Positions 30,965 to 53,642 of a stretch of DNA of 64,000 nucleotides are shown piece after piece. This stretch comes from Flavobacterium sp. MC2016-06. GTDB taxonomy: Bacteria > Bacteroidota > Bacteroidia > Flavobacteriales > Flavobacteriaceae. The notes under the pieces were generated by a model, which worked only from the letters and a program-made list of their open reading frames with translations, had not been told where the DNA came from and ran no database searches. The DNA lies in assembly GCF_009711165.2 (NCBI RefSeq), contig NZ_WMID02000004.1, forward strand, positions 124,001-188,000, given 5' to 3'. Position numbers and translations under genes: made by a program. The first letter of the stretch is position 1. The number at the start of each line of letters is the position of its first letter.

Positions 30965-32152
30965 ATGAATATTCTGAAATTAATAGGAAGAGAAGAAGAA
31001 ATATTTGAAAAAGACATTTCGATACATGAAGTTGAGTTAAACGAAATAATTAAAGTTTCTAAATTTTTAGTGGTTGGTGGCGCTGGTTCAATAGGGCAAG
31101 CAGTAACTAAAGAAATATTTAAAAGAAATCCTTCTAAATTGCATGTTGTTGATATTAGTGAAAATAATATGGTAGAGCTTGTAAGGGATATTAGAAGCTC
31201 TTTTGGTTACATTGATGGCGATTTTCAAACATTTGCATTAGATATTGGATCAATTGAATATGATGCCTTTATTAAATCTGATGGGCAATTTGACTACGTT
31301 TTAAATCTTTCAGCTTTGAAACATGTTCGAAGTGAAAAAGATCCCTTTACTTTAATGCGGATGATTGATGTTAATGTTTTTAATACAGAAAAAACATTAC
31401 ATCAGTCAATAGAAAATGGTACGAAAAAATATTTTTGTGTTTCTACCGATAAAGCTGCTAATCCGGTTAATATGATGGGAGCTTCAAAAAGAATAATGGA
31501 AATGTATTTAATGCGTGAGAGCAAACAAATTAAAATTTCAACAGCTCGTTTTGCAAATGTTGCTTTTTCAGATGGATCATTGTTACATGGGTTTAATCAA
31601 CGAATAATAAAAAAACAACCTATTGTAGCACCAAACGATATTAAAAGATATTTTGTTACACCTAAAGAATCTGGGGAGCTTTGTTTAATGTCGTGTATTT
31701 TTGGAGAGAATCGGGATGTTTTCTTTCCTAAATTAAGTGAAAATTTACATTTAATTTCATTTGCAGATATTGCAATTAAATATTTAGCAGAGTTAGGTTA
31801 TGAAGCTTATCCTTGTGCTTCCGAAGAAGAAGCTAGAGATAAGTCTGAAGCATTAATTAGAGAGAAACAATGGCCGTGTCTATTTGGTACTAGTGATACT
31901 ACTGGTGAAAAAGATTTTGAGGAGTTTTTTACAGAAAATGAAATACTTGATATGCAACGTTTCGAGAATTTGGGTGTCATAAAAAATGATGCTAATTTCG
32001 AACAAGATAAGTTGAGAAATTTTTCAGAAAAAATATCTGAAATGAAATTTAATAAAACATGGAAAAAGGATGATATAGTTGATTTATTTCATACAATGAT
32101 TCCTAATTTCGGACATAAAGAAACTGGTAAGTATTTAGATTCAAAAATGTAA
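30965..32152 (+). CDS. NDP-GlcNAc 4,6-dehydratase (LegB-like), first nonulosonate gene
   Basis: 395 residues, SDR of the polysaccharide biosynthesis (CapD_N) family without membrane segments. Visible: FLVVGGAGSIGQAV (about 33-46), LNLSALKHVRSEKDPF, VSTDKAANPVNMMGASKRIMEMY (catalytic), TARFANVAFSDGSLL and RYFVTPKESGELCL. A C-terminal extension of about 130 residues follows. In Campylobacter legionaminic acid synthesis, LegB acts on GDP-GlcNAc to give the 4-keto-6-deoxy sugar. Assignment to that pathway rests on the following genes. Confidence 0.8.
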   Translation: MNILKLIGREEEIFEKDISIHEVELNEIIKVSKFLVVGGAGSIGQAVTKEIFKRNPSKLHVVDISENNMVELVRDIRSSFGYIDGDFQTFALDIGSIEYDAFIKSDGQFDYVLNLSALKHVRSEKDPFTLMRMIDVNVFNTEKTLHQSIENGTKKYFCVSTDKAANPVNMMGASKRIMEMYLMRESKQIKISTARFANVAFSDGSLLHGFNQRIIKKQPIVAPNDIKRYFVTPKESGELCLMSCIFGENRDVFFPKLSENLHLISFADIAIKYLAELGYEAYPCASEEEARDKSEALIREKQWPCLFGTSDTTGEKDFEEFFTENEILDMQRFENLGVIKNDANFEQDKLRNFSEKISEMKFNKTWKKDDIVDLFHTMIPNFGHKETGKYLDSKM

Positions 32153-32154
32153 TT

Positions 32155-33300
32155 ATGGATAATGCTATTAACGCTACGATTTCTTTTATAAAGGAACAAT
32201 ATAAAACAGAAAATTTCATACCTCTTCATATTCCTCACTTTGGTGGTAATGAGAAAAAATATTTAATTGAGACGATAGATTCTACTTTTGTTTCTTCAGT
32301 TGGTGCATATGTTGATCAGTTTGAAAAAATGATGCAAAAAATTACAGATACTCAAAAAGCAGTTGCAGTTGTTAACGGTACGGCTGCTATTCAAGTAGCT
32401 TTACGTTTAATTGGTGTTAAGAGTGGAGACGAAGTTTTAACACAGGCTTTAACTTTTGTTGCTACAGCTAACTCTATAAGTTATCTACATGCTACCCCCG
32501 TTTTTTTAGATGTTGATTTAGATACCATGGGCTTGTCGCCACATTCTGTCGCACTTTTTTTGGAAGAATTTGGAGATTTAAAAGAAGATGGTTGTTATAA
32601 TAAAAAAACTGGAAAAAGAATAAGTGCATGTCTGCCTATGCATACTTTTGGCTTTCCTGTTCATTTAGATGAATTAATTGAAGTTTGCGATAAGTGGAAA
32701 ATTCCGGTAGTTGAAGATGCTGCGGAATCTTTAGGAAGTAAATACAAAGGAAAATCGACAGGAAGTTTTGGTAAACTTGGCGCATTTTCATTCAACGGAA
32801 ATAAAATAGTAACATGTGGCGGTGGTGGAGCAATTGTTACAAATGATTTTAAATTAGGAGAAAAAGGTAAATACCTAACTACTACGGCAAAGGTTCCACA
32901 TCCTTATGAGTATGTTCATGATGAAATGGGTTACAATTTTAGAATGCCAAATCTAAACGCTGCTCTTGCGTGTGCTCAATTAGAGCAATTGAATAGTTTT
33001 CTTGAAAACAAAAGAAAATTAGCGAAAGAGTATGAATCTTTTTTTGCTTCAAATGGAATAAAATTCAGAACTGAAACACCAGACACTAAGGCTAATTATT
33101 GGTTAATGTGTATTGAGTTTGGAAACAAAATTGAGAGAGATTTGTTTTTAAAAGAGACAAATAAAAAATCAGTTATGACTCGTCCAATTTGGCAGTTAAT
33201 GTATCGACTGCCAATGTATGCAAATTGCCAAAAAGATAAACAGATCAATGCTGAATTTTTAGAAGAAAGAATTGTAAATATACCAAGCAGTGTCAGATAA
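32155..33300 (+). CDS. PLP aminotransferase (LegC-like, DegT/DnrJ family)
   Basis: 381 residues. DegT fold with VNGTAAIQVALRLIGVKSGDEV, VEDAAESLGSKYKGKSTG, and SFNGNKIVTCGGGG with the PLP lysine. NYWLMCIEF and TRPIWQLMYRLPMY are typical of LegC/PglE-type sugar 4-aminotransferases. It would aminate C4 of the LegB product. Two bases after LegB, and it overlaps the next gene by 11 bases. Confidence 0.85.
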   Translation: MDNAINATISFIKEQYKTENFIPLHIPHFGGNEKKYLIETIDSTFVSSVGAYVDQFEKMMQKITDTQKAVAVVNGTAAIQVALRLIGVKSGDEVLTQALTFVATANSISYLHATPVFLDVDLDTMGLSPHSVALFLEEFGDLKEDGCYNKKTGKRISACLPMHTFGFPVHLDELIEVCDKWKIPVVEDAAESLGSKYKGKSTGSFGKLGAFSFNGNKIVTCGGGGAIVTNDFKLGEKGKYLTTTAKVPHPYEYVHDEMGYNFRMPNLNAALACAQLEQLNSFLENKRKLAKEYESFFASNGIKFRTETPDTKANYWLMCIEFGNKIERDLFLKETNKKSVMTRPIWQLMYRLPMYANCQKDKQINAEFLEERIVNIPSSVR

Positions 33301-33913
33301 ATCGGTAATTCTTATTGGATATTCAGGGCATGCATATGTAGTAGCAGAAACTGTTTTAGAAAATGGTTTTGAGATTATTGGGTATTCAGATAAAGAAGTA
33401 GCTCAATCAAATCCATTTGACTTGCCTTATCTAGGATTAGAAAGTGATAAAGATTTTATCGGCTGGTCTAATGAAGTGTCTTTCATACTTGGAATAGGGG
33501 ATAATAAATTAAGACAAAGTATAGCAAATTTGATAGAAAATAAAGGTAAAATAGTTCAAAGAACAATACATAAAACAGCTAATGTTTCAAAAAATGTTGA
33601 AGTAGGTTCAGGTACTTTTATCAATAAAAATGTAATGGTTAATTCGCTTGCACAAATTGGTAAGAATGTAATACTTAACACAAGTTGTATTATTGAACAC
33701 GAATGTATATTGCATAATGCTGTGCACATAGGACCTGGTGCTGTTTTGACAGGTAATGTTACTGTTGGTGAAAGAACATTTGTGGGGGCTAATTCTGTAA
33801 TAAAGCAGGGAGTTGTTATTGGCAAAGATGTTATAATAGGAGCTGGATCTGTTATTATTCATGATGTTGCAGACGGAACAAAAGTTGTAGGGAATCCAGG
33901 TAAAATAATATAA
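33290..33913 (+). CDS. NeuD/PglD-family sugar N-acetyltransferase (LegH-like)
   Basis: 207 residues starting at GTG 33290 inside the aminotransferase gene (11-base overlap). The N-terminal Rossmann-like PglD_N domain (VILIGYSGHAYVVAETVLENGFEIIGYSD) is followed by left-handed beta-helix hexapeptide repeats (GSGTFINKNVMVN, IGPGAVLTGNVTVG, VGANSVIKQGVVIG). It would transfer acetyl to the new 4-amino group. O-acetylation as in NeuD is the alternative, but the position between LegC- and LegI-like genes favours N-acetylation. Confidence 0.8.
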   Translation: MSDKSVILIGYSGHAYVVAETVLENGFEIIGYSDKEVAQSNPFDLPYLGLESDKDFIGWSNEVSFILGIGDNKLRQSIANLIENKGKIVQRTIHKTANVSKNVEVGSGTFINKNVMVNSLAQIGKNVILNTSCIIEHECILHNAVHIGPGAVLTGNVTVGERTFVGANSVIKQGVVIGKDVIIGAGSVIIHDVADGTKVVGNPGKII

Positions 33914-33915
33914 AA

Positions 33916-34938
33916 ATGAGCAAAGTAATTATTATTGCAGAAGCTGGTGTAAATCACAATGGTGATATTAATATAGCTAAAAAATTAATTGATGTAGCTG
34001 TTGATGCTGGCGTAGATTATGTGAAATTTCAAACATTTAAAGCTGATAACTTAGTAAGTAAATTTGCTAAAAAGGCTGAATATCAAAATGTGAATATTAA
34101 TGATGGTGATGATTCTCAATATGCAATGTTAAAAAATTTAGAATTAAGTCATGAAAATCATGTTGAGCTAATGTCTTATTGTTCTGAAAAAAATATTAAA
34201 TTTTTCTCTACTGCATTTGATGTCGAAGGAGTGAAGTATTTAAATGATCTTGGACTTTCTTTTTTTAAGATCCCAAGCGGTGAAATAACAAATTATCCTT
34301 ATTTGAAAGCTGTGGCTTTATGCAAAAAGCCTATTATAATGTCTACAGGAATGTGTTCTGAAAAAGATATTGAAAATGCTTTGGTCGTACTAATTAAATT
34401 TGGATTATCAAAAGAAATGATTTCAATTTTACATTGTAATACTGAATATCCAACTCCAATGAAGGACGTTAACCTTAAAGCAATGCTTTTTATAAAAGAA
34501 AAATTCCAAACTCAAATTGGATATTCAGATCATACCCTTGGTATTGAAGTCTCTATAGCAGCTGTTGCCCTGGGAGCAAAAATTATAGAGAAACATTTTA
34601 CTTTAGATAAAACTTTACCTGGACCAGATCACGTTGCGTCATTAGAGCCAGAGGAATTGAAAAAGATGGTTATGGCAATTCGTAATATAGAATTGGCTAT
34701 AAGTGGTAATGGAGAAAAAGTTCCAAGTGAGAGTGAAACAAAAAATATTGCAATTGCAAGAAAAAGTATTCACTTAAATAAGAATCTACAAATAGGACAT
34801 ATCATTACTGATGATGATCTGATTCCATTACGTCCAGGAGATGGAATTTCTCCAATGGAGTGGGAAAAAATCATTGGAAAAAAACTAATTAAAGATAAAA
34901 TCGAATTTGATAAACTTTCATTTTCTGATATCCAATGA
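33916..34938 (+). CDS. Nonulosonic acid synthase (NeuB/LegI-like)
   Basis: 340 residues: NeuB TIM barrel (IIAEAGVNHNGDINIAKKLIDVA, YVKFQTFKAD, STAFDVEGVKYL, FKIPSGEITNYPYL, STGMCSEKDI, LHCNTEYPTP, GYSDHTLGIEV, IEKHFTLDKTLPGPDH) plus a C-terminal SAF domain (RKSIHLNKNLQIGHIITDDDLIPLRPG). Condenses phosphoenolpyruvate with a 6-carbon diamino or N-acetylated sugar to make a nine-carbon sialic-like acid. Its last bases overlap the next start by 4 (ATGA). Confidence 0.93.
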   Translation: MSKVIIIAEAGVNHNGDINIAKKLIDVAVDAGVDYVKFQTFKADNLVSKFAKKAEYQNVNINDGDDSQYAMLKNLELSHENHVELMSYCSEKNIKFFSTAFDVEGVKYLNDLGLSFFKIPSGEITNYPYLKAVALCKKPIIMSTGMCSEKDIENALVVLIKFGLSKEMISILHCNTEYPTPMKDVNLKAMLFIKEKFQTQIGYSDHTLGIEVSIAAVALGAKIIEKHFTLDKTLPGPDHVASLEPEELKKMVMAIRNIELAISGNGEKVPSESETKNIAIARKSIHLNKNLQIGHIITDDDLIPLRPGDGISPMEWEKIIGKKLIKDKIEFDKLSFSDIQ

Positions 34939-36038
34939 AAATAGGTGTTTTAACTAGTTCACGCGCTGATTATGGAATATACCTTCCACTACTTAATAAA
35001 ATTAAAAAAGATGAATTTTTTGAGTTAGAAATTATTGCGTTTGGAACACATTTATCCAGAAACCACGGTTATACATTAAAAGATATAGAAAAGGATACCT
35101 ATAATTGCATTCATACTGTATCATCTCTGATTTCAAACGACAGTGAAGAATCTATTGCCTCATCTTACGGTTTGACTGTTCTTAAATTTGCAGATTTTTG
35201 GAATATGCATAAATATGATTTAGTTTTTTGCTTAGGAGATCGTTTTGAAATGAGTGCAGCCATCCAGGGAGGAATTCCTTTTGGGGTTAAATTTGCACAC
35301 TTACATGGTGGAGAAACAACATTAGGAGCGATTGATAATATATATCGCCATCAAATTACTTTGGCTTCGGTACTTCATTTTACAGCCACAGATATATTTA
35401 CCGAAAAAGTTTGCACGCTTATTGATTCTTCACAAAATGTTTTTACGACAGGATCTTTGAGCTTAAATGATATTAAAAGTTTTAGTCCAATAGAAAGGCA
35501 AACATTTTTTGAGAAATTCGGAATACCAGAAGAAGAATTTATTCTAGTTACTTTTCATCCTGAAACTATTTCTTCTCAGGATAATTTTCAGTATGCAGAG
35601 GAAATGAAAAAAGCTTTAAAAAAGATTTCGAAAAATCAATTTGTTGTTATTACAATGCCGAATGCTGATACACAAGGATCAATTTTTAGAAAAGCTATTG
35701 AAGAATTAAAATTAGAGATTTCGAATAGAATTTTACTAATTGAAAATTTTGGAAAAATTAATTATTTTTCAGCAATGTTTTATGCTTCAATATTATTAGG
35801 AAATACTTCTAGTGGAATTTTGGAAGCTGCTTCATTTGGGAAATATGTTGTTAATGTTGGAGATAGGCAAAAAGGACGAGCACAGAGCAAAAATATTATA
35901 AATTGTGAATTTGAAGAAAAAGCAATCGTTTCGTCTGTTACAAAAGCCATAGAATCGAATATTTATGCTGGCGGAAATATTTATTTTAAATTAGAAACAG
36001 CAGATAACATTATTAAAATCATTAAGAAATTTACATGA
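34935..36038 (+). CDS. Hydrolysing NDP-sugar 2-epimerase (NeuC/LegG-like)
   Basis: 367 residues, GT-B-like epimerase fold: TSSRADYGIYLPLLNKI at the N-terminus, FCLGDRFEMSAAIQGGIPF, HLHGGETTLGAIDNIYRHQITLAS, FHPETISSQDNF and GNTSSGILEAASFGKYVVNVGDRQKGR. Releases the nucleotide while inverting C2, giving the free hexose for the synthase. Whether it uses UDP- or GDP-linked diacetylbacillosamine is not visible, but PtmE next door suggests GDP. ATGA overlaps on both sides. Confidence 0.9.
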   Translation: MKIGVLTSSRADYGIYLPLLNKIKKDEFFELEIIAFGTHLSRNHGYTLKDIEKDTYNCIHTVSSLISNDSEESIASSYGLTVLKFADFWNMHKYDLVFCLGDRFEMSAAIQGGIPFGVKFAHLHGGETTLGAIDNIYRHQITLASVLHFTATDIFTEKVCTLIDSSQNVFTTGSLSLNDIKSFSPIERQTFFEKFGIPEEEFILVTFHPETISSQDNFQYAEEMKKALKKISKNQFVVITMPNADTQGSIFRKAIEELKLEISNRILLIENFGKINYFSAMFYASILLGNTSSGILEAASFGKYVVNVGDRQKGRAQSKNIINCEFEEKAIVSSVTKAIESNIYAGGNIYFKLETADNIIKIIKKFT

Positions 36039-37081
36039 GAATTTACAAAGACCATTTAATTCTTTCAGGGAGTAAGGTGAAAGAAGCTCTATTTGCATTG
36101 AATGAGTTATCGCAAGATGCTATTCTTTTTGTAGTTGATAGTAATGACAAATTAATAGGAGCACTTACGGATGGTGATGTAAGACGAGGACTTTTGAAAG
36201 GATTTACAATTGATAGTCTTATTAATGAAATAATTCAGGATAACCCAAGATATATTACAAAAGGAGAAAATAATTTGAACAAAATTATAGAATATCGTGA
36301 AGGTGATTTCAGAATTGTTCCAATAGTAGATGAAAATCATAGAGTTGTTAATGTCATTAATTTTAGAAATATTAAATCATATTTACCAATAGATACGGTG
36401 ATTATGGCTGGTGGTAGAGGGCAAAGATTGCAACCTCTTACTGATACAATACCTAAACCTCTTCTAAAGGTGGGAGATAAAGCTATTATCGAACATAATC
36501 TAGATCGATTGGCTTTGTTTGGTATAGATGATTTTTGGATCTCTGTAAAGTATTTGGGAGAACAAATTCAAAATCATTTTGGTGATGGAAAAGAAAAAAA
36601 TGTTAAAATAGAATATGTTTGGGAAAATGAACCGTTAGGAACTATTGGTGCAGTATCTCAAATTAAAAATTTTGACCATGACTATATTCTTGTTACAAAT
36701 TCCGACTTATTAACCAATATTGATTACGAACAGTTTTTTCTTGAGTTTATAAAACAAGATGCCGATTTAGCGGTATTAACAATTCCTTACCAAGTTAGTA
36801 TCCCTTATGCTGTTTTAGAAACAAATGATGGTTTTGTCAAAAGTTTTAAAGAAAAGCCGACATATACATATTATTCTAACGGTGGTATTTATTTAATTAA
36901 GAAAGAGATGCTTAAACATATACCTGCTGATACTTTTTTTAATGCAACTGATTTTATGGAGCAACTGATTAAAGATGAGCGTAAAGTAATATCATTCCCT
37001 TTTTCAGGATATTGGTTGGATGTAGGTAAACATGAAGATTTTGAGAAAGCTCAAATTGATATTAAGAATATAAAAATGTAA
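36035..37081 (+). CDS. CBS-domain sugar-1-P nucleotidyltransferase (PtmE-like)
   Basis: 348 residues in two parts. A tandem CBS pair fills residues 1 to about 118 (LIGALTDGDVRRGLLKG; RIVPIVDENHRVVNV). A nucleotidyltransferase follows, with VIMAGGRGQRLQPLTDTIPKPLLKVG, VTNSDLLTNIDYEQF, FKEKPTYTYYSNGGIYLI and YWLDVGKHEDFEKAQ. In Campylobacter, PtmE makes GDP-glucosamine for legionaminic acid. The CBS pair may sense a nucleotide. Overlaps neighbours by 4 and 1 bases. Confidence 0.85.
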   Translation: MRIYKDHLILSGSKVKEALFALNELSQDAILFVVDSNDKLIGALTDGDVRRGLLKGFTIDSLINEIIQDNPRYITKGENNLNKIIEYREGDFRIVPIVDENHRVVNVINFRNIKSYLPIDTVIMAGGRGQRLQPLTDTIPKPLLKVGDKAIIEHNLDRLALFGIDDFWISVKYLGEQIQNHFGDGKEKNVKIEYVWENEPLGTIGAVSQIKNFDHDYILVTNSDLLTNIDYEQFFLEFIKQDADLAVLTIPYQVSIPYAVLETNDGFVKSFKEKPTYTYYSNGGIYLIKKEMLKHIPADTFFNATDFMEQLIKDERKVISFPFSGYWLDVGKHEDFEKAQIDIKNIKM

Positions 37082-37764
37082 TGAGAATATTGTATTTAAT
37101 TCCTGCTAGGTCTGGCTCTAAGGGACTTCCAGGTAAAAATGTCAAATTATTAGGAAATAAACCATTAGTAACTTATTCTATTGACTTTGCACTGCAAAAT
37201 ATGAAAGAAGACGATGAATTATGTATATCTACTAATGATCAAGATGTAATTAAAATTGCTAATGATTTAGGAATAGACTTGCCATTTGTAAGGCCAGATG
37301 AGTTAGCGGCTGATGCTTCATCTTCATACGACGTTATAATGCATGCCTTAAAGCATTATGAAGAGAATAGAAAAAATTTTGATTTTGTATTGCTTTTGCA
37401 ACCAACTTCACCTTTTAGAAATAATGAAGATATTGAAAATCTTTTTTTAAACTATAGTGATGATACTGAAATGGTTGTTACTGTGAAGAATTCAAAAGAA
37501 AATCCATATTTTACTCTTTTTGAAGAAAATGAATTTGGCTTTCTGGATAAAAGTAAAATTGGAGATTTTCAAAGACGTCAAGATTGTCCTGAAGTTTTTG
37601 CTTTTAATGGCTCCATGTATTTGTTCAAAGTGAGTGCATTACTGGAGAAAAAAATTAGCGAATTTAAGAAGATAAAAAAAGTAGTTATGCCAGAAGAAAG
37701 AAGCATTGATATTGATACAATAGCAGATTGGACTTTGGCGGAATTTTATTTAGATAAACAATGA
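37081..37764 (+). CDS. CMP-nonulosonate synthetase (NeuA/LegF-like)
   Basis: 227 residues: IPARSGSKGLPGKNVKLLGNK (CTP-binding signature), ISTNDQDVIKIANDLGID, LLQPTSPFRNNEDIENL, and the RRQDCPEVFAFNGSMYLFK and ERSIDIDTIADWTLAEF motifs. Activates the nine-carbon acid with CTP, the last soluble step before transfer. Overlaps PtmE-like by 1 base and the HisF-like gene by 4. Confidence 0.93.
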   Translation: MRILYLIPARSGSKGLPGKNVKLLGNKPLVTYSIDFALQNMKEDDELCISTNDQDVIKIANDLGIDLPFVRPDELAADASSSYDVIMHALKHYEENRKNFDFVLLLQPTSPFRNNEDIENLFLNYSDDTEMVVTVKNSKENPYFTLFEENEFGFLDKSKIGDFQRRQDCPEVFAFNGSMYLFKVSALLEKKISEFKKIKKVVMPEERSIDIDTIADWTLAEFYLDKQ

Positions 37765-38606
37765 AAACAGTAAGAATAATACCTAGATTAGACATTAAAG
37801 GTCCGAATCTAGTTAAAGGAATTCATTTAGAAGGATTAAGAGTATTAGGTAAGCCATCTGATTTTGCTAAATATTATTACGAACAGGGTGCAGATGAATT
37901 AATGTTTATGGATGTAGTAGCTTCTTTATATGAAAGAAACAGTCTTCATGATATTATCTCAGAAACAGCAAAAAAAATATTTATTCCAATTACTGTTGGT
38001 GGAGGTTTGCGTTCAATTTCTGACATCAAAGAGGTATTAAGAGTGGGTGCTGATAAAGTGTGTTTAAATACTGCAGCAATAAAAAACCCTCAATTGATAA
38101 AAGATGCTTCAAGAATGTTTGGTTCTTCAACAATTGTTGTTGCCATAGAAGCAATAAAAGAAAATGACGGAAGATATTTGGCATACACAGATAATGGCAG
38201 AGAACATACTGGTGTTGATGTTTTTGAATGGGCTCAAAAAGTTGACGAATTAGGAGCTGGTGAAATAGTTATTACTTCTGTAGATAGAGAAGGAACAGGT
38301 CAGGGTTACGACTTAGATTTAATTTCTAAACTAACAAAATTAGTGAGTATTCCTGTAATTGCTCATGGTGGAGCAGGAAAACAAGATCATGTAGTTGATG
38401 TTCTTAAAGATGGAAATATAAGTTCTGCAATGATATCATCAATGTTTCATTATCATTTTATAAAAGAAAATGAGTCAAATGCCTCTTCTTTAGAAGGAAA
38501 TGTGGAGTTTCTTAATCAAAAAAGAAATTTTCATACATTCGAACCTTGTACTATTGAGGAAGTGAAAAAAAGGTTAATTAGCAACCAAATAGAGTGTAGA
38601 TTGTAA
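37761..38606 (+). CDS. HisF-like ammonia-channel subunit with D130E change
   Basis: 281 residues, (beta/alpha)8 barrel of HisF: IIPRLDIKG (Asp11), ITVGGGLRSISDIKEVL, LNTAAIKNP, TSVDREGTGQGYDLDLI and IPVIAHGGAGK. The second catalytic Asp of imidazole glycerol phosphate synthase (position 130, usually AID) is Glu here (VVAIEAIK), and a C-terminal extension of about 25 residues is added. Likely passes ammonia from the HisH-like partner to the amidotransferase rather than making histidine. 4-base overlap upstream, 1-base downstream. Confidence 0.85.
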   Translation: MKTVRIIPRLDIKGPNLVKGIHLEGLRVLGKPSDFAKYYYEQGADELMFMDVVASLYERNSLHDIISETAKKIFIPITVGGGLRSISDIKEVLRVGADKVCLNTAAIKNPQLIKDASRMFGSSTIVVAIEAIKENDGRYLAYTDNGREHTGVDVFEWAQKVDELGAGEIVITSVDREGTGQGYDLDLISKLTKLVSIPVIAHGGAGKQDHVVDVLKDGNISSAMISSMFHYHFIKENESNASSLEGNVEFLNQKRNFHTFEPCTIEEVKKRLISNQIECRL

Positions 38607-39262
38607 TGGGAGATATTAAAAAAAATGTGATAATTATAGATTATCAATTGGGTAATCTGTTTAGTGTTAAGCAAGCTTGCGATACTATAGGAATTAATGC
38701 TAAAATTAGTTCCGATAAAGATGATGTTTTAAATGCAGATGCTTTAATTCTTCCTGGAGTTGGTGCATTTATCGAAGCAATGAACAATTTAAAGAAATTT
38801 GAGCTTGATACAGCAATACAGCAGAAAGTTAAAAGTGGAACACCAATTTTCGGGATTTGTCTTGGGCAGCAATTGCTTTTTACAGAAAGTGAAGAGTTTG
38901 GAGCTGGTAAAGGATTGGATTTGATTTCAGGAGTGATTAAGAGATTTCCTGAGACATTAGAAGAGAGAATGATAAAAGTGCCACATATAGCATGGAATAC
39001 CATATATAAATCTCAACAGGATTGGAATCAATCGGCATTATCTGAACTAGATAATAATGATTTTATGTACTTTATTCATTCGTATTATGTAAAACCAGCT
39101 GATGATTCCTGCATCTTAACAAAAACAAACTATGATGGTATAGAGTTTTGCTCATCTATTTTGAGAGATAATATTTTTGCAACTCAATTTCATCCTGAAA
39201 AAAGTGCTACCAAAGGAATATCAATATATAAAAATTGGGCTTTAATTAATAACTTATTATAA
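38606..39262 (+). CDS. HisH-like glutaminase subunit
   Basis: 218 residues, class I glutamine amidotransferase with an intact triad: Cys85 in GICLGQQLL, His196 and Glu198 in TQFHPEKSATKG. VIIIDYQLGNLFSV and LILPGVGAF are HisH-type. In P. aeruginosa O-antigen and Campylobacter flagellin-glycan loci, HisH2/HisF2 supply ammonia to a WbpG/PseA enzyme. Here the three genes sit in the same order and overlap by single bases. Confidence 0.88.
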   Translation: MGDIKKNVIIIDYQLGNLFSVKQACDTIGINAKISSDKDDVLNADALILPGVGAFIEAMNNLKKFELDTAIQQKVKSGTPIFGICLGQQLLFTESEEFGAGKGLDLISGVIKRFPETLEERMIKVPHIAWNTIYKSQQDWNQSALSELDNNDFMYFIHSYYVKPADDSCILTKTNYDGIEFCSSILRDNIFATQFHPEKSATKGISIYKNWALINNLL

Positions 39263-40494
39263 TGTCAGAAAAGAAAAAATTAGAGGCATATTACGGATTG
39301 CCTGAAGAAGTATCATTTTGTACTAAGTGTGTAATGTCTAATCAGCGTCCAACGTCAACGGTTGAATTTAAGCACACAAAAGACAGCAGAAAAACAACCA
39401 TGAACTTTGATGAGCAAGGAGTGTGCGATGCTTGTAGAACTGCCGAAATAAAAGATAATATTGACTGGGGTATGCGTGAAGAGGAGTTGGTCAAACTTTT
39501 AGATAAATACCGTAAAAATGATGGATCATATGATTGTTTAGTTCCTGGTAGTGGAGGTAAAGATAGTGCTTACCAAGCCCATGTGTTAAAATATAAGTAT
39601 AATATGAATCCGTTAACGGTTACATGGCCACCTATTTTATACACTGATTATGGCTTAAAAAACTGGAAAAACTGGTTGGATAGCGGTTTTGATAATATTT
39701 CTTTTTATCGTAATGGTAAAGTTATGAAATTATTGACGAAATTATCAATTGAGAATTTATTACATCCATTTCAGACTTTTATTCTTGGTCAAAAAAATTT
39801 AGCTCCAAAAATTGCTGCTCAACATGGAATTAATTTGATTTTTTATGGTGAAAATGAAGCTGAATACGGAAATCCTTTAGCTGATAATATGACATCTTTA
39901 AGAGATAAATCTTATTTTAGTTTTGAGCATTTAGATGAAATATTTTTAGCAGGTGTTTCAATAAAGGAATTAATGGAAAAATATGATGTTAGATTAAGTG
40001 ATTTGATGGCTTATTTACCTCCCAAGGCAGAAGAACTTGAAAAAGCAAATATCGAAGTACATTATTTGGGTTATTATTTAAAATGGACTCCACAAGAAGT
40101 GTACTACTATGCTGTTGAAAATACTGGATTTAAAGCAAGGCCTCATAGAACGCAAGGTACTTTCAGTAAATATAGCGGAATAGATGATAAAATTGACGAC
40201 TTACATTTCTATACGACATTTATAAAATTTGGTATTGGTAGAGCGACATATGATGCTTCACAAGAAATAAGAAACAGACATCTTACTAGAGAAGAAGGTC
40301 AAGCTTTAGTTAGCCGTTTTGATGGAGAATTTCCAGATAGATACTTTAATGATGTAATGGAATACATTGGTATGGAATCAGAATATTTCCATGAATTATG
40401 CGATAAATTCAGATCACCGCATTTATGGGGTAAAGATGAAGAAGGAAATTGGAAATTGAGACATAATGTAGCTGGTAAGGGACTGGAGGACTAA
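39262..40494 (+). CDS. N-acetyl sugar amidotransferase (WbpG/PseA/PtmG family)
   Basis: 410 residues. A zinc-ligand pair (FCTKC, Cys20/Cys23; VCDAC, Cys55/Cys58) precedes the ATP-PPase P-loop SGGKDS at 97-102. HYLGYYLKWTPQEVYYYAVE and the C-terminal half match the family, which converts an acetamido group to acetamidino using ammonia from HisH/HisF. Being last in the nonulosonate block, its likely substrate is a legionaminic acid or its CMP form; a diacetamido uronic acid cannot be excluded. A 16-base hairpin follows its stop. Confidence 0.88.
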   Translation: MSEKKKLEAYYGLPEEVSFCTKCVMSNQRPTSTVEFKHTKDSRKTTMNFDEQGVCDACRTAEIKDNIDWGMREEELVKLLDKYRKNDGSYDCLVPGSGGKDSAYQAHVLKYKYNMNPLTVTWPPILYTDYGLKNWKNWLDSGFDNISFYRNGKVMKLLTKLSIENLLHPFQTFILGQKNLAPKIAAQHGINLIFYGENEAEYGNPLADNMTSLRDKSYFSFEHLDEIFLAGVSIKELMEKYDVRLSDLMAYLPPKAEELEKANIEVHYLGYYLKWTPQEVYYYAVENTGFKARPHRTQGTFSKYSGIDDKIDDLHFYTTFIKFGIGRATYDASQEIRNRHLTREEGQALVSRFDGEFPDRYFNDVMEYIGMESEYFHELCDKFRSPHLWGKDEEGNWKLRHNVAGKGLED

Positions 40495-40502
40495 TTATAT
40501 AA

Positions 40503-40564
40503 TAAGAAATGGAATAATTTTTCATAAGTTGAAATTATTATTCCATTTCTTAATCAATTTTTTT
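40503..40564 (+). terminator. Long hairpin with delayed T-run after the nonulosonate block
   Basis: TAAGAAATGGAATAAT (40503-40518) is perfectly complementary to ATTATTCCATTTCTTA (40537-40552), with an 18-base loop. ATCAA and then a run of T follow, so the T-run starts 5 bases from the stem. It may be a leaky terminator or a processing hairpin between the sugar-synthesis block and the Wzx gene. Confidence 0.55.
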
Positions 40565-40594
40565 TCTATACTTTTAAACATTACAAAATTCATA

Positions 40595-41857
40595 ATGAAT
40601 TTATACAAGTCATTTTCCTTATATACTGTAGCTTCTTTTATTGAAAGGGGATTAGCTTTTTTTCTTTTACCAATATTTACTTTTTATTTAACAACAAAAG
40701 ATTTTGGAATCTTATCACTAGTAACCTCTATTTTTAGTTTTAGCTTGCCCTTAGTAACTCTTGGTATACAAGGTGCAATATCAGTCGCTTATTTTAATGG
40801 AGATAAAAGAAATTACCCTAGTTATTTTACTTCTTCAATTGTAACTCCTTTCATTATAACAATATTTTTGACTTTGGTTATTTTGATTTTTAAAACACCA
40901 ATTGAGAACTATCTAGAAATACCAATCCTTTGGGTTTTAACTATTCCAATCTTTTGTTTTTTGTCTTTTTTTAATTCATTATTACTTATTGATTATCAAA
41001 TAAAAAATGAACCAACAAAATATATTACATATAGCCTTTCTAATTCATGTTTAAATATTTTAATCTCTCTCTTACTAGTAATTCTTTTTAAATTAGGTTA
41101 TCAGGGTAGATTGACTGGGCAGTACTTCTCTATTATTATTTTCTCTATTGTTGGTTTTTATATTTTGTATAAAAAAAGAGAGCTTCTAGTAAAAAAAATT
41201 AATTGGGTAAACGTTAAAGATTCTCTCTCATATGGCTTACCTCTTGTTCCACATATATTAGGGGCGATGGTAATAAATATGTCTGATAGAATGTTTATAG
41301 ATTATTTTTGCGGTAAGGAAGAACTTGGAATTTACAATATTGGGTATGTTATTGGATCTGCTATTTCAATTCTTTGTGCTGCATTTGCAAATGCAATAAT
41401 TCCATTTAGCTACGAATTATTTGCAATAGGTACTTTTGAGGCAAAAGCAAAGGTTGTAAAAGTATATTGGTTATTTGTATTAGTAATGATTGTTGCAGGT
41501 TTGAGTGTTTGGGGATTAACGCCTTTAATTTTTAAGTATTTTATTGATGCAAAATTTTTGGGTGGTATAAAATATGTGCCTTGGATTGTATTAGGTTATT
41601 TTTTCCAAGGAATGTATCTGTTGTTTGCCAACATTATATTTTATCTTAAAAAAACTAAAATACTATTTTATTTATCATTTGTGAATATTATAATAAACTT
41701 CAGTCTTAATTATTTTTTAATTCCAGTTCTTGGGCCAATGGGGGCAGCATATGCAACTTGCGTGAGTTTTTTTCTCTTTTTTATTATGATTGCATTCAGT
41801 TGTAATAGAATTTATCCTTTACCTTGGATGAGTATTTTAATTAAGACAAATAAATAA
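40595..41857 (+). CDS. Wzx-type polysaccharide flippase
   Basis: 420 residues from ATG 40595 (MNLYKSFSLYTVASFIERGL), the usual family N-terminus. An in-frame TTG at 40529 would put a hydrophobic extension over the upstream hairpin and is not preferred. About 12 membrane helices. Motifs such as LPIFTFYLTTKDFGILSLV, DRMFIDYFCGKEELGIYNIGYVIG and NYFLIPVLGPMGAAYATC are typical. It would flip the lipid-linked repeat unit to the periplasm for the Wzy-like polymerase at 48995. Confidence 0.88.
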   Translation: MNLYKSFSLYTVASFIERGLAFFLLPIFTFYLTTKDFGILSLVTSIFSFSLPLVTLGIQGAISVAYFNGDKRNYPSYFTSSIVTPFIITIFLTLVILIFKTPIENYLEIPILWVLTIPIFCFLSFFNSLLLIDYQIKNEPTKYITYSLSNSCLNILISLLLVILFKLGYQGRLTGQYFSIIIFSIVGFYILYKKRELLVKKINWVNVKDSLSYGLPLVPHILGAMVINMSDRMFIDYFCGKEELGIYNIGYVIGSAISILCAAFANAIIPFSYELFAIGTFEAKAKVVKVYWLFVLVMIVAGLSVWGLTPLIFKYFIDAKFLGGIKYVPWIVLGYFFQGMYLLFANIIFYLKKTKILFYLSFVNIIINFSLNYFLIPVLGPMGAAYATCVSFFLFFIMIAFSCNRIYPLPWMSILIKTNK

Positions 41858-42373: not shown

Positions 42374-43729
42374 ATGGACATATTAGACTTTACAGACAAG
42401 TTTCAGAAAATTGAGGCTGAAAATAACTTTTTTACTGAAAAAGACAGCGAAGGAATATTGTATTGGGATGTTGTGAGACATGATGTTTTTTACTTATTAT
42501 ATTATATAGTTTGTGATACTAAGCTTTTACCTTCTTTAAATGCCAGAAAATCTAAAATGGCTCTGCTTTCTACTTTGTTAAATAACGTTTTGGGATATAT
42601 AAATTTTAAACTAAAAACTTCGTATAAATACAAATACATATGTTTTACTACTTCAAGAAACAAAGAAGCTGATAAAAATGTAGATTTTATATTGGATGAT
42701 ATATTAAGTAATATTCATCAGGATTCTTTAGTAATTGAGAGTTTTAATAAAAACACATCAGAAAATCGATATAAATCAGTTTTTAATTATGGTCTATTGA
42801 TGAGTTCTTATAAGTGGAGATTAAAGTATAAGTTTTCTAAAAAAATGCTCGATAGATATAGGATTGCCGAGATTTTAAAGCACGAATTTAATGTTGATCT
42901 TACAAGTGATATAGATGCGATAATCACTAATTATAAAATATCTAAATCTCATTATTTGCTATTGTTTGCCAAAGTGAAGCCTAAAGCTATATTTTTAGTG
43001 CAAAATGGTATCCAGAAAGGATTGTTTGAAGCAGCACATAAACTTAATATTCGGGTTATTGAACTTCAGCACGGACTCATAGGATATATACATCCGGCAT
43101 ATTCTTACCCAAGTATTATTCGATCAGGAGAATTGGAAACTTTACCTGATACATTTTTCTCTTTTTCCGATTTTTGGACCAATAATTTAAACTTTCCTGT
43201 TAAAAATATCATTCCACTAGGTAATAATTTTTATTCAAATAGAATAGTCAATAAATCAAAAGAATATGATCTTACCTTTATATTCGCAAATATTTATAGT
43301 ACTGATTTATTACAATTTGTAGATAACTTATTGAAAAATGACTATAAAGGCAAGATATGCATAAAATTACACCCCAACCAACTTGATGAGTTTAATGTTA
43401 TAACATCACAGTATGAGGCATATGATACTATCGACGTAATCGCTTCGCAGAGATCCATGGGGGAAATACTTTCTGTTTCAAAAGCAATTTTTGCTATACA
43501 ATCAACAGCAGTATACGAGGCACTTCATTACAAAGTTAAGGTATATCTTTATAAAATTAAAGATTACCTCACACATCAGGATGTTATAGGTAATCCAAAT
43601 GTATATTTGGTAGACAATGTTGCAGATTTAGATAAGTATGATGCAAATAATTTTGTAGATTCTGAAGTATCTGCCATGTTTGAGCCGTTTAATGACCTAG
43701 TGTTTAATGATTTTATAAAAAATCTATAA
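42374..43729 (+). CDS. Unrecognised GT-B-like protein, candidate nonulosonate transferase
   Basis: 451 residues, no signal peptide or clear membrane segment. No family could be named with confidence. Three spaced motifs stand out: LQHGLIG (Gln232-His233-Gly234), IKLHPNQ (His333-Pro334) and IQSTAVYEAL (Ser377-Thr378). An HP motif followed by an S-S/T motif is characteristic of bacterial sialyltransferases (GT38/GT52/GT80) and also occurs in capsule KpsS-like enzymes. Its place just behind the CMP-nonulosonate block makes it a candidate legionaminyl transferase. Function is inference. Confidence 0.55.
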   Translation: MDILDFTDKFQKIEAENNFFTEKDSEGILYWDVVRHDVFYLLYYIVCDTKLLPSLNARKSKMALLSTLLNNVLGYINFKLKTSYKYKYICFTTSRNKEADKNVDFILDDILSNIHQDSLVIESFNKNTSENRYKSVFNYGLLMSSYKWRLKYKFSKKMLDRYRIAEILKHEFNVDLTSDIDAIITNYKISKSHYLLLFAKVKPKAIFLVQNGIQKGLFEAAHKLNIRVIELQHGLIGYIHPAYSYPSIIRSGELETLPDTFFSFSDFWTNNLNFPVKNIIPLGNNFYSNRIVNKSKEYDLTFIFANIYSTDLLQFVDNLLKNDYKGKICIKLHPNQLDEFNVITSQYEAYDTIDVIASQRSMGEILSVSKAIFAIQSTAVYEALHYKVKVYLYKIKDYLTHQDVIGNPNVYLVDNVADLDKYDANNFVDSEVSAMFEPFNDLVFNDFIKNL

Positions 43730-44326: not shown

Positions 44327-45763
44327 ATGCTCTTTAATTCATTAAATTTTGCTTTCTTTTTGCCAATTATATTTGCTTTATATTGGATGCTGAATAAGAC
44401 TAGAAAATACCAAAATATCCTGTTATTAATTTCAAGTTATTTTTTTTACGCTTGTTGGGATTGGAGGTTTTTATTCCTACTCATATTTTCTACGCTTTTA
44501 GATTATTATACAGGAATTAAAATGTCTGAGTCTAAAACAGTTCAGTCTAAAAAAGTGTGGTTTTGGCTTAGTGTAATAATAAATCTTGGTTTTTTAGGTG
44601 TTTTTAAATACTATAATTTTTTCGCAACATCTTTTGGTGAATTATTATCTGGTTTTGGACTACAGGTAAATGTTTGGACTTTAAATGTGATATTACCTGT
44701 GGGAATTTCGTTTTATACATTTCATGGATTATCATATGTTATTGATATTTATAACGATAAAATAAAAGCTGAAAGAGACTTTATCGATTACTCGCTTTTT
44801 GTTAGTTTTTTTCCTCTATTGGTAGCTGGGCCAATCGAGCGTGCAACGCATTTATTGCCTCAGGTAAAAAATGACAGAACATTTAATTACTATAATGCAG
44901 TCGATGGATTAAGGCAGATTTTGTGGGGACTTTTTAAGAAAGTTGTTATTGCAGATCAATGTGCAATTTATGCTAATACAATTTTCAACAGTTCTTCTGA
45001 TCAATCAGGAAGTACTTTGGCATTAGGTGCAGTTTTCTTTACAATTCAGATCTATGGTGATTTTTCGGGTTATTCAGATATTGCTTTAGGAACTGCCAGA
45101 CTTTTTGGTTTTGACCTTCTACGAAATTTTGCTTATCCTTATTTTTCCCGTGATATAGCTGAATTTTGGAGGAGATGGCATATTTCATTGTCATCTTGGT
45201 TTAAGGATTACTTATATATTCCTTTAGGAGGTAGTAAGGGAGGTATGTGGTTAAAAATTAGAAATACATTTATAATTTTTTTAGTTAGTGGTTTTTGGCA
45301 CGGTGCTAACTGGACTTTTATTGCTTGGGGATTATTAAATGCATTATACATAATGCCATCTATTATTTTTAATAGTAACAGGAATAATCTTGATACTGTA
45401 GCTCAGGGACGATTTTTACCTACTTTTAAAGAGTTTTTTAGCATAGCAATTACGTTTTCTCTTACAGTTATTGCATGGATATTTTTCAGGGCTAATAATA
45501 TAACACATGCTCTGTCATATATTTCAAATATGTTTTCCAAACAGCTTTTGTCGGTTCCGACAATTATGCCTCCAAAACTGATATTATTTATAATCCTTTT
45601 TATGCTTATTGAATGGTTAGGACGTGAGAATAAATTTGCTATTGAAAAACTGTTTTTAAGGTTTTCGCCTTTATTCAGATGGGTTTTTTATATAGTTATA
45701 ATTTTTATGATATTCAATTATACATTACAGGATAAGCCACAATTTATTTATTTTCAATTTTAA
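44327..45763 (+). CDS. MBOAT-family O-acyltransferase (AlgI-like)
   Basis: 478 residues, about 10 membrane helices. MBOAT hallmarks are FFPLLVAGPIERATHLLPQ, IYGDFSGYSDIALGTARLFGF, FWRRWHISLSSWFKDYLYIPLGGS and the catalytic His325 in SGFWHGANW. Such proteins move acyl groups across the inner membrane onto periplasmic glycans, usually with an SGNH/AlgJ-like partner, which is the next gene. Confidence 0.92.
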   Translation: MLFNSLNFAFFLPIIFALYWMLNKTRKYQNILLLISSYFFYACWDWRFLFLLIFSTLLDYYTGIKMSESKTVQSKKVWFWLSVIINLGFLGVFKYYNFFATSFGELLSGFGLQVNVWTLNVILPVGISFYTFHGLSYVIDIYNDKIKAERDFIDYSLFVSFFPLLVAGPIERATHLLPQVKNDRTFNYYNAVDGLRQILWGLFKKVVIADQCAIYANTIFNSSSDQSGSTLALGAVFFTIQIYGDFSGYSDIALGTARLFGFDLLRNFAYPYFSRDIAEFWRRWHISLSSWFKDYLYIPLGGSKGGMWLKIRNTFIIFLVSGFWHGANWTFIAWGLLNALYIMPSIIFNSNRNNLDTVAQGRFLPTFKEFFSIAITFSLTVIAWIFFRANNITHALSYISNMFSKQLLSVPTIMPPKLILFIILFMLIEWLGRENKFAIEKLFLRFSPLFRWVFYIVIIFMIFNYTLQDKPQFIYFQF

Positions 45764-45781
45764 ACCCAGATAGAAATTAAT

Positions 45782-46750
45782 ATGAAAAAATTTATTCAGA
45801 GACTATCTATATTTACAGGTATAATCGTGCTTATTTTGGTTGTAGGAGCACTCACGCCGCCTACTCCTCGATCTAAAACATCTCTTTTATTTTCAAAATT
45901 AGATAAAGATTCTTTAATGAAAAATGTTAAGAGCGATAGGCTTATACTTATTGGGGGGTCTAATTTATCTTTTGGTATAAACAGTCAGATGTTAAAAGAC
46001 TCTTTGAAAGTTAATCCAATTAATAATGGTATTCATGCTGCTTTAGGGCTTGAATATTTGTTGAATGAAGCTGCTCCATATATTAAGAAAGGTGATGTGA
46101 TTATAATATCTCCGGAGTATACTCATTTCTATGGTAACACTGCCTATGGATCTGAGGTTTTATGCAGAATGTTTTTTGATGTTGATTTTAGGAAAGGAAA
46201 TGAGGCCTCTAGAAAAATGAGCTTTAAACAATGGCAGCAAATATTAATGTATTGCCCTAAATATGTGGCTTCAAAGTTTGATCTGTTAGAGTATTTTCCC
46301 CTAAGTCATGATCCTGTTTACAGCCGAGATTCTTTTAATCAATATGGTGATGCAGTCGCTCATTATAATCTTCCTCCTGTAGATTATTTGCCTTTGGATG
46401 TCATAGATGGAAAATTCAATGAAGATATAGTAACGAAGCTGAAAGAATTCAGAGACCATGTATTGGAAAAAAAAGCAAGATTATTTATTACCTTTCCTGC
46501 AGTGGATAAAAAATCTTATCAAAATAATAAAACCCAAATAAACAAAATTTATCAAAAACTACAAGATGATAAGTTTTTAATCTTAGGGACACAGTTAGAA
46601 TTTGTAGTATCGAATGACATGATATTTAATGCTTATTGTCATCTTAATAAAAAAGGAACAGATCAGAGGACAAAATTATTGATTAAAGAATTACAAAAAA
46701 ATTATGAAAAATATACTAATAACCGGTGGAGCAGGTTTTATAGGCTCTAA
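45782..46750 (+). CDS. SGNH/AlgJ-like partner of the MBOAT protein
   Basis: 322 residues with an N-terminal membrane anchor (about 8-24) and a periplasmic domain. IGGSNLSFGIN (Ser60) looks like SGNH block I, and NAYCHLNKKG near residue 283-292 looks like the catalytic DxxxH block, but Asn283 stands where related proteins usually have Asp. It probably completes acyl transfer for the MBOAT protein. Its last 47 bases overlap the next gene, and the C-terminal residues (NNRWSRFYRL) come from that overlap. Confidence 0.7.
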   Translation: MKKFIQRLSIFTGIIVLILVVGALTPPTPRSKTSLLFSKLDKDSLMKNVKSDRLILIGGSNLSFGINSQMLKDSLKVNPINNGIHAALGLEYLLNEAAPYIKKGDVIIISPEYTHFYGNTAYGSEVLCRMFFDVDFRKGNEASRKMSFKQWQQILMYCPKYVASKFDLLEYFPLSHDPVYSRDSFNQYGDAVAHYNLPPVDYLPLDVIDGKFNEDIVTKLKEFRDHVLEKKARLFITFPAVDKKSYQNNKTQINKIYQKLQDDKFLILGTQLEFVVSNDMIFNAYCHLNKKGTDQRTKLLIKELQKNYEKYTNNRWSRFYRL

Positions 46751-52210: not shown

Positions 52211-52759
52211 ATGAAAATTGAAAAAACATTTATAAAAGACTTGGTAATAATTGAACCAACAGTTTTTGGAGACGAAAGAGGTTATTTTTTTGAATCATAC
52301 AGTAAAACTAAATTTGAAGATTTAGGAATCAATATTGATTTTGTTCAAGACAATCAATCCTATTCTAAAAAAGGAACATTAAGAGGTTTGCATTATCAAA
52401 ATCCACCTTTTGCACAAACCAAATTAGTTCGTGTTTTAGAAGGAGAAATTATTGATGTAGCAGTAGACTTGAGAAAAGATTCTCCTACTTACGGAAAGGC
52501 TTTTAGTGTTTTATTATCAGCAGAAAATAAAAAGCAATTATTAGTGCCGCAAGGTTTTGCACATGGTTTCTCGGTTATTAGCGAGACTGCATCTGTAATG
52601 TACAAATGTGATCAGTTTTATAATAAAGCTTCAGAAGGTGGGATTAAATTTGATGATCCATCTTTAAATATTGATTGGGGAATGGATTTAAATGATGCTA
52701 TTGTTTCAGAAAAAGATCAGATTCTTCCGTTTATTGAAAATTGCAATAGTTTATTCTAA
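52211..52759 (+). CDS. rfbC: dTDP-4-dehydrorhamnose 3,5-epimerase
   Basis: 182 residues, cupin fold RmlC: EPTVFGDERGYFFESY, QDNQSYSKKGTLRGLHYQ (catalytic His region), VRVLEGEIIDVAVDLRKDSPTYG, LLVPQGFAHGFSVIS and YKCDQFYNKASEGGI. Epimerises dTDP-4-keto-6-deoxyglucose at C3 and C5. Overlaps rfbD by 1 base; rfbB is distant. Confidence 0.96.
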   Translation: MKIEKTFIKDLVIIEPTVFGDERGYFFESYSKTKFEDLGINIDFVQDNQSYSKKGTLRGLHYQNPPFAQTKLVRVLEGEIIDVAVDLRKDSPTYGKAFSVLLSAENKKQLLVPQGFAHGFSVISETASVMYKCDQFYNKASEGGIKFDDPSLNIDWGMDLNDAIVSEKDQILPFIENCNSLF

Positions 52760-53607: not shown

Positions 53608-53642
53608 AATATAAATTTCATTTACTAAAAAAATAAAAAAAT

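Follow-up and report, generated by a model that had tools for sequence, protein, structure and literature searches.

The window analysed here is a stretch of 64,000 nucleotides from Flavobacterium sp. MC2016-06 (contig NZ_WMID02000004.1, positions 124,001 to 188,000; contig 4 of a draft genome of 6.17 Mb, 99.97% complete). Its forward strand carries a ten-gene run predicted to direct the synthesis of an amidinated legionaminic acid (Leg). Ten open reading frames (ORFs) of 207-410 amino acids each fill the whole interval 30965-40494 (Table 1). From gene 1 to gene 10, successive junctions measure +2, -11, +2, -4, -4, -1, -4, -1 and -1 bases, in exact agreement with the 1-11 base overlaps and 2-base gaps described in an earlier note on this DNA. 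Since the junctions are tight and the G+C content of the genes (0.30-0.33) matches that of the window (0.31), the run is a compact operon-like unit that is not visibly foreign by composition. Identical gene order was encountered in a Flavobacterium metagenome-assembled genome (MAG; locus L017) and in the genome of an uncultured member of the Flavobacteriaceae (L026); the run is also conserved, but without a NeuD match, in two Pedobacter loci (L032 and L035). As the gene order recurs in these four loci, the grouping exceeds chance.

Table 1. Features of the ten-gene run and of two genes downstream of it
Feature	Coordinates	Strand	Evidence
Gene 1, PF02719 4,6-dehydratase in LegB's place	30965..32152	+	PF02719 152 bits; PDB 3PVZ match
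Gene 2, LegC aminotransferase (pyridoxal phosphate)	32155..33300	+	TIGR04181 536 bits, cut-off 420
Gene 3, LegH-type N-acetyltransferase (NeuD/PglD family), GTG start	33290..33913	+	TIGR03570 192 bits, cut-off 161; PF17836
Gene 4, LegI nonulosonate synthase (NeuB family)	33916..34938	+	TIGR03569 467, cut-off 400
Gene 5, LegG hydrolysing 2-epimerase (NeuC family)	34935..36038	+	TIGR03568 365 bits, cut-off 236
Gene 6, PtmE-like CBS + nucleotidyltransferase	36035..37081	+	PF00571 + PF00483
Gene 7, LegF cytidine monophosphate (CMP)-nonulosonate cytidylyltransferase, branch without MocA/SDR	37081..37764	+	PF02348; 68-row tree
Gene 8, HisF-like subunit, Glu for Asp130	37761..38606	+	WbuZ 278, hisF 270 bits, both under cut-off
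Gene 9, HisH-like glutaminase	38606..39262	+	TIGR01855 207 bits, cut-off 105; GICLGQ, ATQFHPEKS
Gene 10, WbuX/N-acetyl sugar amidotransferase (NASAT)	39262..40494	+	TIGR03573 351 bits, cut-off 203; 8WEX 536 bits
Wzx-type flippase directly downstream of the run	40529..41857	+	PF01943 86 bits
GT-B-fold protein, candidate glycosyltransferase	42374..43729	+	model pLDDT (predicted local distance difference test) 94

Searches with NCBIfam and Pfam models upheld nine of the ten family labels of the earlier note in substance; the label LegB for gene 1 failed (see below). No equivalog model of NCBIfam was over cut-off for gene 6. The same note had taken a siding of the synthase and the CMP-transferase with pseudaminic acid (Pse) or neuraminic acid (Neu) enzymes as what would speak against Leg; no such siding was observed. 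Gene 4 was found over the NeuB cut-off and under that of PseI (282 bits, cut-off 340); it displays a KIPSGE motif and has Gly at the Pse-discriminating site, where Neu/Leg-type synthases have Gly and Pse enzymes Phe (PMC7371886). As to PtmF, of which the earlier note saw no homologue in the window, the genome has a single glmS over cut-off (at C28), no second copy of such kind being found.

The last three genes form a putative amidination trio. Gene 10 carries an SGGxDS PP-loop and two CxxC pairs and is the single WbuX match in the genome. NASAT is described as a zinc and PP-loop enzyme with a tetracysteine motif, probably converting ATP to AMP (PMC10607449). In the WbuX tree, the window's enzyme groups with that of Legionella pneumophila (8WEX) in a clade of 12 of the 27 rows (support 100/100); long branches meet below this clade, the point at which it joins the other types is uncertain and the rows of L053 and L078 are partial. 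Identity to the L. pneumophila NASAT is 55.5% for the window's enzyme and 25-33% for rows outside the clade. The O-chain of L. pneumophila is reported to be based on 5-acetamidino-7-acetamido-legionaminic acid (Leg5Am7Ac), and its ORF 28 to be a homologue of ptmG, which makes CMP-Leg5Am7Ac (PMC3766260). Among 80 loci surrounding gene-1 relatives in named genomes (the best 80 of 558, counts on which are not prevalences), 17 contained some WbuX homologue and 9 a member of the window's clade. Full-length WbuX of the window type (at least 48% identity) occurred in 10 of 395 Bacteroidota, 3 of 397 family and 2 of 249 genus genomes, each count including the window's own genome. When 13 regions were chosen by WbuX (G347 included), a NeuB-family gene was present in 10, none was within reach in two and one was cut by a contig end.

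The other WbuX types displayed features of their own. An assignment of these types to 'other-sugar' enzymes was dropped, as they also lie beside Leg-type cores with MocA and SDR (short-chain dehydrogenase/reductase) genes (L010, L016, L018, L040, L046, L060 and L073). In five loci (L010, L016, L018, L060 and L095), the exact SGGxDS PP-loop is absent and both CxxC pairs are kept; this group adjoins MocA+SDR Leg-type cores in four of the five, L095 being a short locus. A window-type WbuX in G347 (C1:1563684-1564208, L130; 82% identity) aligns over residues 4-178 of 410 only and looks truncated, and a second, different WbuX lies about 5 kb from it. Two unlike copies close together were also seen in L065 (a Sulfuricurvum MAG), G243, G949, G909, G323 and G461; such pairs perhaps amidinate one sugar twice or two sugars once each.

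The HisF-like subunit (gene 8) is distinct from the housekeeping HisF, which is encoded by a separate gene on contig 1 (C1:470712, 348 bits). Asp11 and Asp130, which we take to be the catalytic pair of bona fide HisF, are both present in the genome's own HisF and in HisF-LUCA. Across the 21 rows for HisF of the window's module type, Asp11 is invariant and position 130 is Glu in 20, L128 having Val. These rows comprise the window with nine loci of a first motif table and eleven WbuX-chosen loci, several rows being nearly identical; L112, which is the window once more, and L094, which repeats the L129 locus without the N-terminus, were removed. For HisF beside other WbuX types, all 12 rows (ten of the first table and two of the WbuX-chosen loci) retain Asp130 and lack Asp11. 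One catalytic acid is thus missing in both sets, a different one in each, a pattern which fits a HisF retained as glutaminase partner and putative ammonia conduit. The change from Asp to Glu is mild, and the loss of activity is a presumed one; position and residue pattern are the grounds on which gene 8 would work like WbuZ.

Gene 1 had been called LegB, yet a profile search of NCBIfam gave no match to the LegB model TIGR04180. It belongs instead to PF02719, and PDB entry 3PVZ ('UDP-N-acetylglucosamine 4,6-dehydratase') matches it over residues 2-395 with 699 bits. No match found in the genome reaches the TIGR04180 cut-off of 475 bits, the highest score being 136. The nearest named relative of gene 1 among the best 80 is in Flavobacterium seoulense (90% identity), and its Escherichia coli homologues are 74% (O161) and 76% (O108) identical. 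LegC follows gene 1 in 76 of the 80 loci; in L052 and L079, two of the remaining four, the sequence stops within 1.7 kb. Of the loci that extend for 8 kb or more to the right of gene 1, 69 in number, 68 have a PtmE homologue on that side. In three Bacteroidota loci picked by this WbuX type (L121, L125 and L126), LegB over cut-off stands directly upstream of LegC; L121 otherwise resembles the window, L125 has no gene-7 match and L126 differs in downstream order. Because gene 1 precedes LegC in most loci and a true LegB does so in these three, gene 1 appears to fill LegB's slot, and we read this as one dehydratase family replacing another ahead of the same PtmE-fed pathway. The LegB slot is likewise filled by a dehydratase of a non-LegB family in E. 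coli O161.

Two further features of gene 1 were not decisive. Among 390 genomes, LegB over cut-off occurred in 24 and gene 1 at 70% identity or more in 11 (17 at E <= 1e-80) with an overlap of 0, only the top few candidates per genome being scored; chance alone would leave the two without overlap in half of cases (P 0.49), and no mutual exclusion is claimed. Gene 1 also carries a T-D-K ... M-x3-K motif, given for WbpM/PglF (PMC8987622). As a marker of retaining versus inverting enzymes, Met for Tyr is undecisive, since inverting CapE-type dehydratases can reportedly have Met as well (PMC7439481). The same source describes the Leg pathway of Campylobacter jejuni as GDP-linked and that of Bacillus subtilis as UDP-linked with dehydratase SpsM, Leg in B. 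subtilis being not fully restored by legB (PMC7439481).

Two E. coli serotypes provide anchors for distinguishing Leg from 8-epilegionaminic acid (8eLeg): the O161 repeat is reported to contain Leg5NAc7NR (PMC10609480), and O108 to contain 8eLeg (PMC3628348). The clusters with O161 wzx/wzy and with O108 wzx share with the window the gene-1 dehydratase type, LegC, NeuB, NeuC, a PtmE-like gene and a cytidylyltransferase. To this core, and unlike the window, O108 adds a Gfo/Idh/MocA oxidoreductase (MocA) and an SDR. The O161 cluster differs from the window by a FemAB-type gene, at the position of the O108 acetyltransferase, and by the absence of a NeuD match; neither MocA nor SDR was detected in its 23 kb by annotation or blastp. 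The amidination trio was not found in the E. coli O161 and O108 stretches read. A similar logic, Leg genes plus extra ones, is described for Acinetobacter (PMC5595891).

The MocA-SDR pair is absent from the ten-gene run. No MocA homologue was found in the window's genome at E <= 1e-5 (without a positive control), and the SDR search returned 18 SDRs of at most 38% identity. A gene-7 tree of 68 rows was built from the window, 63 of the 80 gene-1 loci (17 had no row) and 4 E. coli loci; it covers relatives from these sources only. CYTIDYLYLTRANSFERASE marks the branch: a single 29-row fork (Shimodaira-Hasegawa-like approximate likelihood ratio test 94, under the starred level) takes in each of the 27 rows that have both MocA and SDR no more than 3.5 kb away, with E. 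coli O108 inside, and E. coli O161 and the window outside. The MocA/SDR label requires 3 changes on this tree against a shuffled mean of 21, a contrast made easier by near-copies. Similarly, MocA or SDR occurred nearby in 0 of 16 loci with a gene 7 at least 45% like the window's; below 45%, both occurred in 27 of 51 (67 loci in all, Fisher p 7e-5, kinship ignored) and one or both in 30 of 51. Exceptions were an SDR match without MocA (L015, L020, L030, L055 and L066), MocA and SDR without a gene-7 homologue (L014, L036 and L089) and, inside the MocA/SDR clade, MocA without SDR (L085) or a pair away from the counted gene-7 homologue (L061). Since the run lacks the pair and gene 7 lies outside the clade linked to it, Leg rather than 8eLeg is predicted, and on the same grounds the product would have the D-glycero-D-galacto configuration.

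Comparison with close relatives localized this difference. Two stretches of DNA from congener G206 (L129) match the window, at 83% for 30965-37146 and at 78% for 37761-40472; between them, gene 7 is replaced by a different cytidylyltransferase, a MocA and an SDR. The DNA of F. seoulense (L010) ceases to match soon after the start of gene 7, at 37187; a block of this kind comes next, and then a WbuX trio of another type. Because both matches break at gene 7, the segment separating genes 6 and 8 is apparently exchanged while the rest stays. This suggests that such operons may change one stereocentre of the sugar through a small mid-operon block swap. As the cytidylyltransferase is swapped together with the oxidoreductases, we infer that CMP is attached to an epimer already formed, which differs from the published proposal that CMP-Leg5Ac7Ac is what gets epimerised (PMC5595891).

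In the proposed pathway, the PtmE-like gene 6 would activate an amino sugar phosphate, gene 1 would carry out 4,6-dehydration with retention at C5, LegC would install an amino group at C4 and the NeuD-type gene 3 would acetylate it. Gene 5 would then remove the nucleotide with 2-epimerisation, gene 4 would add pyruvate and gene 7 would form CMP-5,7-di-N-acetyl-legionaminic acid (CMP-Leg5Ac7Ac). HisH would release ammonia from glutamine, the HisF-like barrel would relay it without histidine-pathway chemistry, and WbuX, using ATP, would activate an acetamido carbonyl and convert the group into an acetamidino one, most likely at N5. The run thus probably makes CMP-Leg5Ac7Ac, which would then be amidinated, most likely at N5 and putatively as the CMP sugar, to (CMP-)Leg5Am7Ac destined for a Wzx-exported surface polysaccharide. 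The forecast of the earlier note, an acetamidino-legionaminic-type acid for a surface polysaccharide, appears to withstand the tests run (a NeuB-type synthase, LegC, and WbuX in the Legionella clade).

A broader model may be advanced, tentatively and as a whole somewhat doubtful. A single block placed after gene 6 and before the trio, [LegF] in one form and [LegF' + MocA + SDR] in the other, would set the C8 configuration, with epimerisation before or together with CMP activation and a need for an epimer-specific cytidylyltransferase. The HisF of amidination modules would be a cyclase-dead ammonia conduit, disabled at least twice in different ways (Asp130 in this WbuX clade, Asp11 in others), and gene-1 dehydratases, annotated as UDP-GlcNAc enzymes, would act on the PtmE product.

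Several observations weigh against Leg5Am7Ac. Since the trio also occurs beside other genes and with distant synthases, WbuX or the trio by itself does not seem to specify Leg: the window's HisF-HisH-WbuX type lies beside MocA and SDR in five loci (L038, L053, L054, L078 and L129) and, in L124, L128 and L130, with a NeuB only 35-37% like gene 4. The L124 synthase reached 364 bits with NeuB and 215 with PseI, both under cut-off, and its identification as a Pse enzyme was not borne out. In L119, one of the ten WbuX-chosen regions with a NeuB-family gene, WbuX has neither a HisF nor a HisH match in the region. Gene 8 reached 277.6 bits with WbuZ (TIGR03572), below the cut-off of 299.7, though this was the best of all models. 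Moreover, the O161 anchor genome has a frameshifted wzy, and the anchor is the published serotype structure, not that strain. According to a 2025 review, the stage at which acetamidino-type groups are added in Bacteroidota O-glycans (activated sugar or after assembly) is unknown (PMC12871550). At synthase position 184, given as Tyr in Leg and Ser in Pse enzymes (PMC7371886), the window and the E. coli O161 homologue have Thr; the site was discarded as a Leg marker, Thr being found in 69 of 75 rows. Finally, the best named model for gene 7 was PseF (140 bits, under the cut-off of 206). This would favour a Pse or Neu derivative, an outcome that is highly improbable given that the PseI model is under cut-off and NeuB and LegC over it, with Gly and not Phe at the Pse site. 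The Neu pathway requires neither dehydratase nor LegC, and a separate set, in appearance a Neu5Ac pathway accompanying that for Leg, lies nearby, 9.9 kb past the window end and about 33 kb downstream (L138:9864-13802, contig 4 197864-201802). It consists of a cytidylyltransferase, an acyltransferase (PF01757), NeuB (398.3 bits, cut-off 399.65) and NeuC, with neither dehydratase nor LegC among the 10 ORFs scanned (of 17 of at least 150 amino acids).

The serious rival, which the earlier note had not considered, is 8eLeg5Am7Ac: the same core, joined by epimerising enzymes encoded elsewhere, would yield this C8 epimer. It is a real natural sugar of Aliivibrio salmonicida lipopolysaccharide (LPS; PMC7371886), G206, a close relative within the genus with counterparts of genes 1-6 and 8-10, carries MocA and SDR, and an unlinked location of the epimerising genes has been described for 8-epipseudaminic acid (PMC12053666); the genome searches for MocA (without positive control) and SDR, together with the position of gene 7 outside the MocA/SDR-linked clade, make it unlikely. 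That Leg5Ac7Ac is made and the trio amidinates another acetamido sugar of the same polysaccharide, in the manner of FucNAm in F. columnare or ManNAc3NAmA in P. aeruginosa, is quite unlikely: overlaps of 1-4 bases connect the trio to the Leg genes and its members to one another, the tree places its WbuX with the Legionella enzyme, and a NeuB-family gene is present in 10 of the 13 regions chosen by WbuX alone. Yet the O-chain of F. columnare is reported to contain L-FucNAm (PMC3210612), and WbuX-type enzymes are described as acting on several sugars (PMC10607449). A silent or partly inactive cassette, displaying Leg5Ac7Ac or nothing, is very unlikely, as none of the ten reading frames is interrupted and no residue is missing from the PP-loop, the two CxxC pairs or the glutaminase motifs.

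Leg5Am7Ac synthesis by the window's run may be set beside known systems. The Campylobacter CMP-legionaminic acid pathway comprises LegB, LegC, LegH, LegG, LegI, LegF, PtmE and PtmG. By family, the steps are the same and both systems have a PtmE-like gene; the window differs in having a PF02719 dehydratase for LegB, and HisF and HisH in the same run. The WbuXYZ and WbpG-HisH2-HisF2 modules display the same three enzyme families as the trio. The other WbuX types among the fetched loci are set apart by their lower likeness to NASAT and by HisF without Asp11. With the L. pneumophila LPS O-chain pathway (neuABCD, aminotransferase, ORF 28/PtmG), the window shares the Leg core and the WbuX/NASAT-type amidotransferase (PMC3766260). 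Yet in L. pneumophila the dehydratase (lpg0966) is reported outside the locus and the precursors are given as UDP-linked (PMC3766260), whereas the window has a single run with a PtmE-like gene 6 and a PF02719 dehydratase. At the product level, the sugar of A. salmonicida and that predicted for the window are both amidinated, Leg-type and part of a Gram-negative surface polysaccharide, the former being 8-epi. Acetamidino-Pse is reported in Tannerella, with an AsnB-type gene proposed for the amidine (PMC6120980), and acetamidino groups are listed as rare in Bacteroidota O-glycans (PMC12871550).

New in this study are the gene-7 block swap in a congener and the Asp11/Asp130 pattern of HisF by module type, the parts of most interest to the specialist. 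A limited literature search, in which subscription journals were mostly not covered, found no published report of amidinated legionaminic acid in Flavobacteriia or of the mid-operon swap; no report of the HisF residue pattern was met either, though no keyword search was aimed at it. If true, the proposed product would add a flavobacterial polysaccharide to the places where amidinated legionaminic acid is known, which include Legionella LPS and Campylobacter flagellin. The window and G206 would constitute a natural experiment, with operons differing mainly in one block and predicted to make Leg5Am7Ac and 8eLeg5Am7Ac, respectively, which makes the timing of C8 epimerisation testable. The cytidylyltransferase is a candidate sequence marker separating the epimers in genomes, and the Asp11/Asp130 pattern offers a residue test of the remaining role of HisF in amidination modules. 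The acetamidino group would put a basic centre on an otherwise acidic sugar, and may alter recognition by phages and grazers.

Two of the genes downstream of the run are shown at the end of Table 1. A Wzx homologue, 69% identical, occupies the same place in L032. No donor was assigned to the GT-B-fold protein, whose nearest solved folds are 2-epimerases and assorted GT-B enzymes. Two hexapeptide transferases, an MBOAT acyltransferase and a glycosyltransferase of the WaaS/CpsH family also lie downstream, along with a Wzy match that is weak and below threshold. The MBOAT acyltransferase (PF03062; DltB model 154 bits, under cut-off) is followed by a protein of 322 amino acids without family match (44327-46750); possibly, and as a guess, the two are paired for O-acylation of the polysaccharide outside the membrane. 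Another PF02719 protein, longer than gene 1 at 655 amino acids and of WbpM/PglF-like length, is encoded at 57256-59223, near dTDP-rhamnose-type genes (RmlC, RmlD and nucleotidyltransferase families) at 52211-54512.

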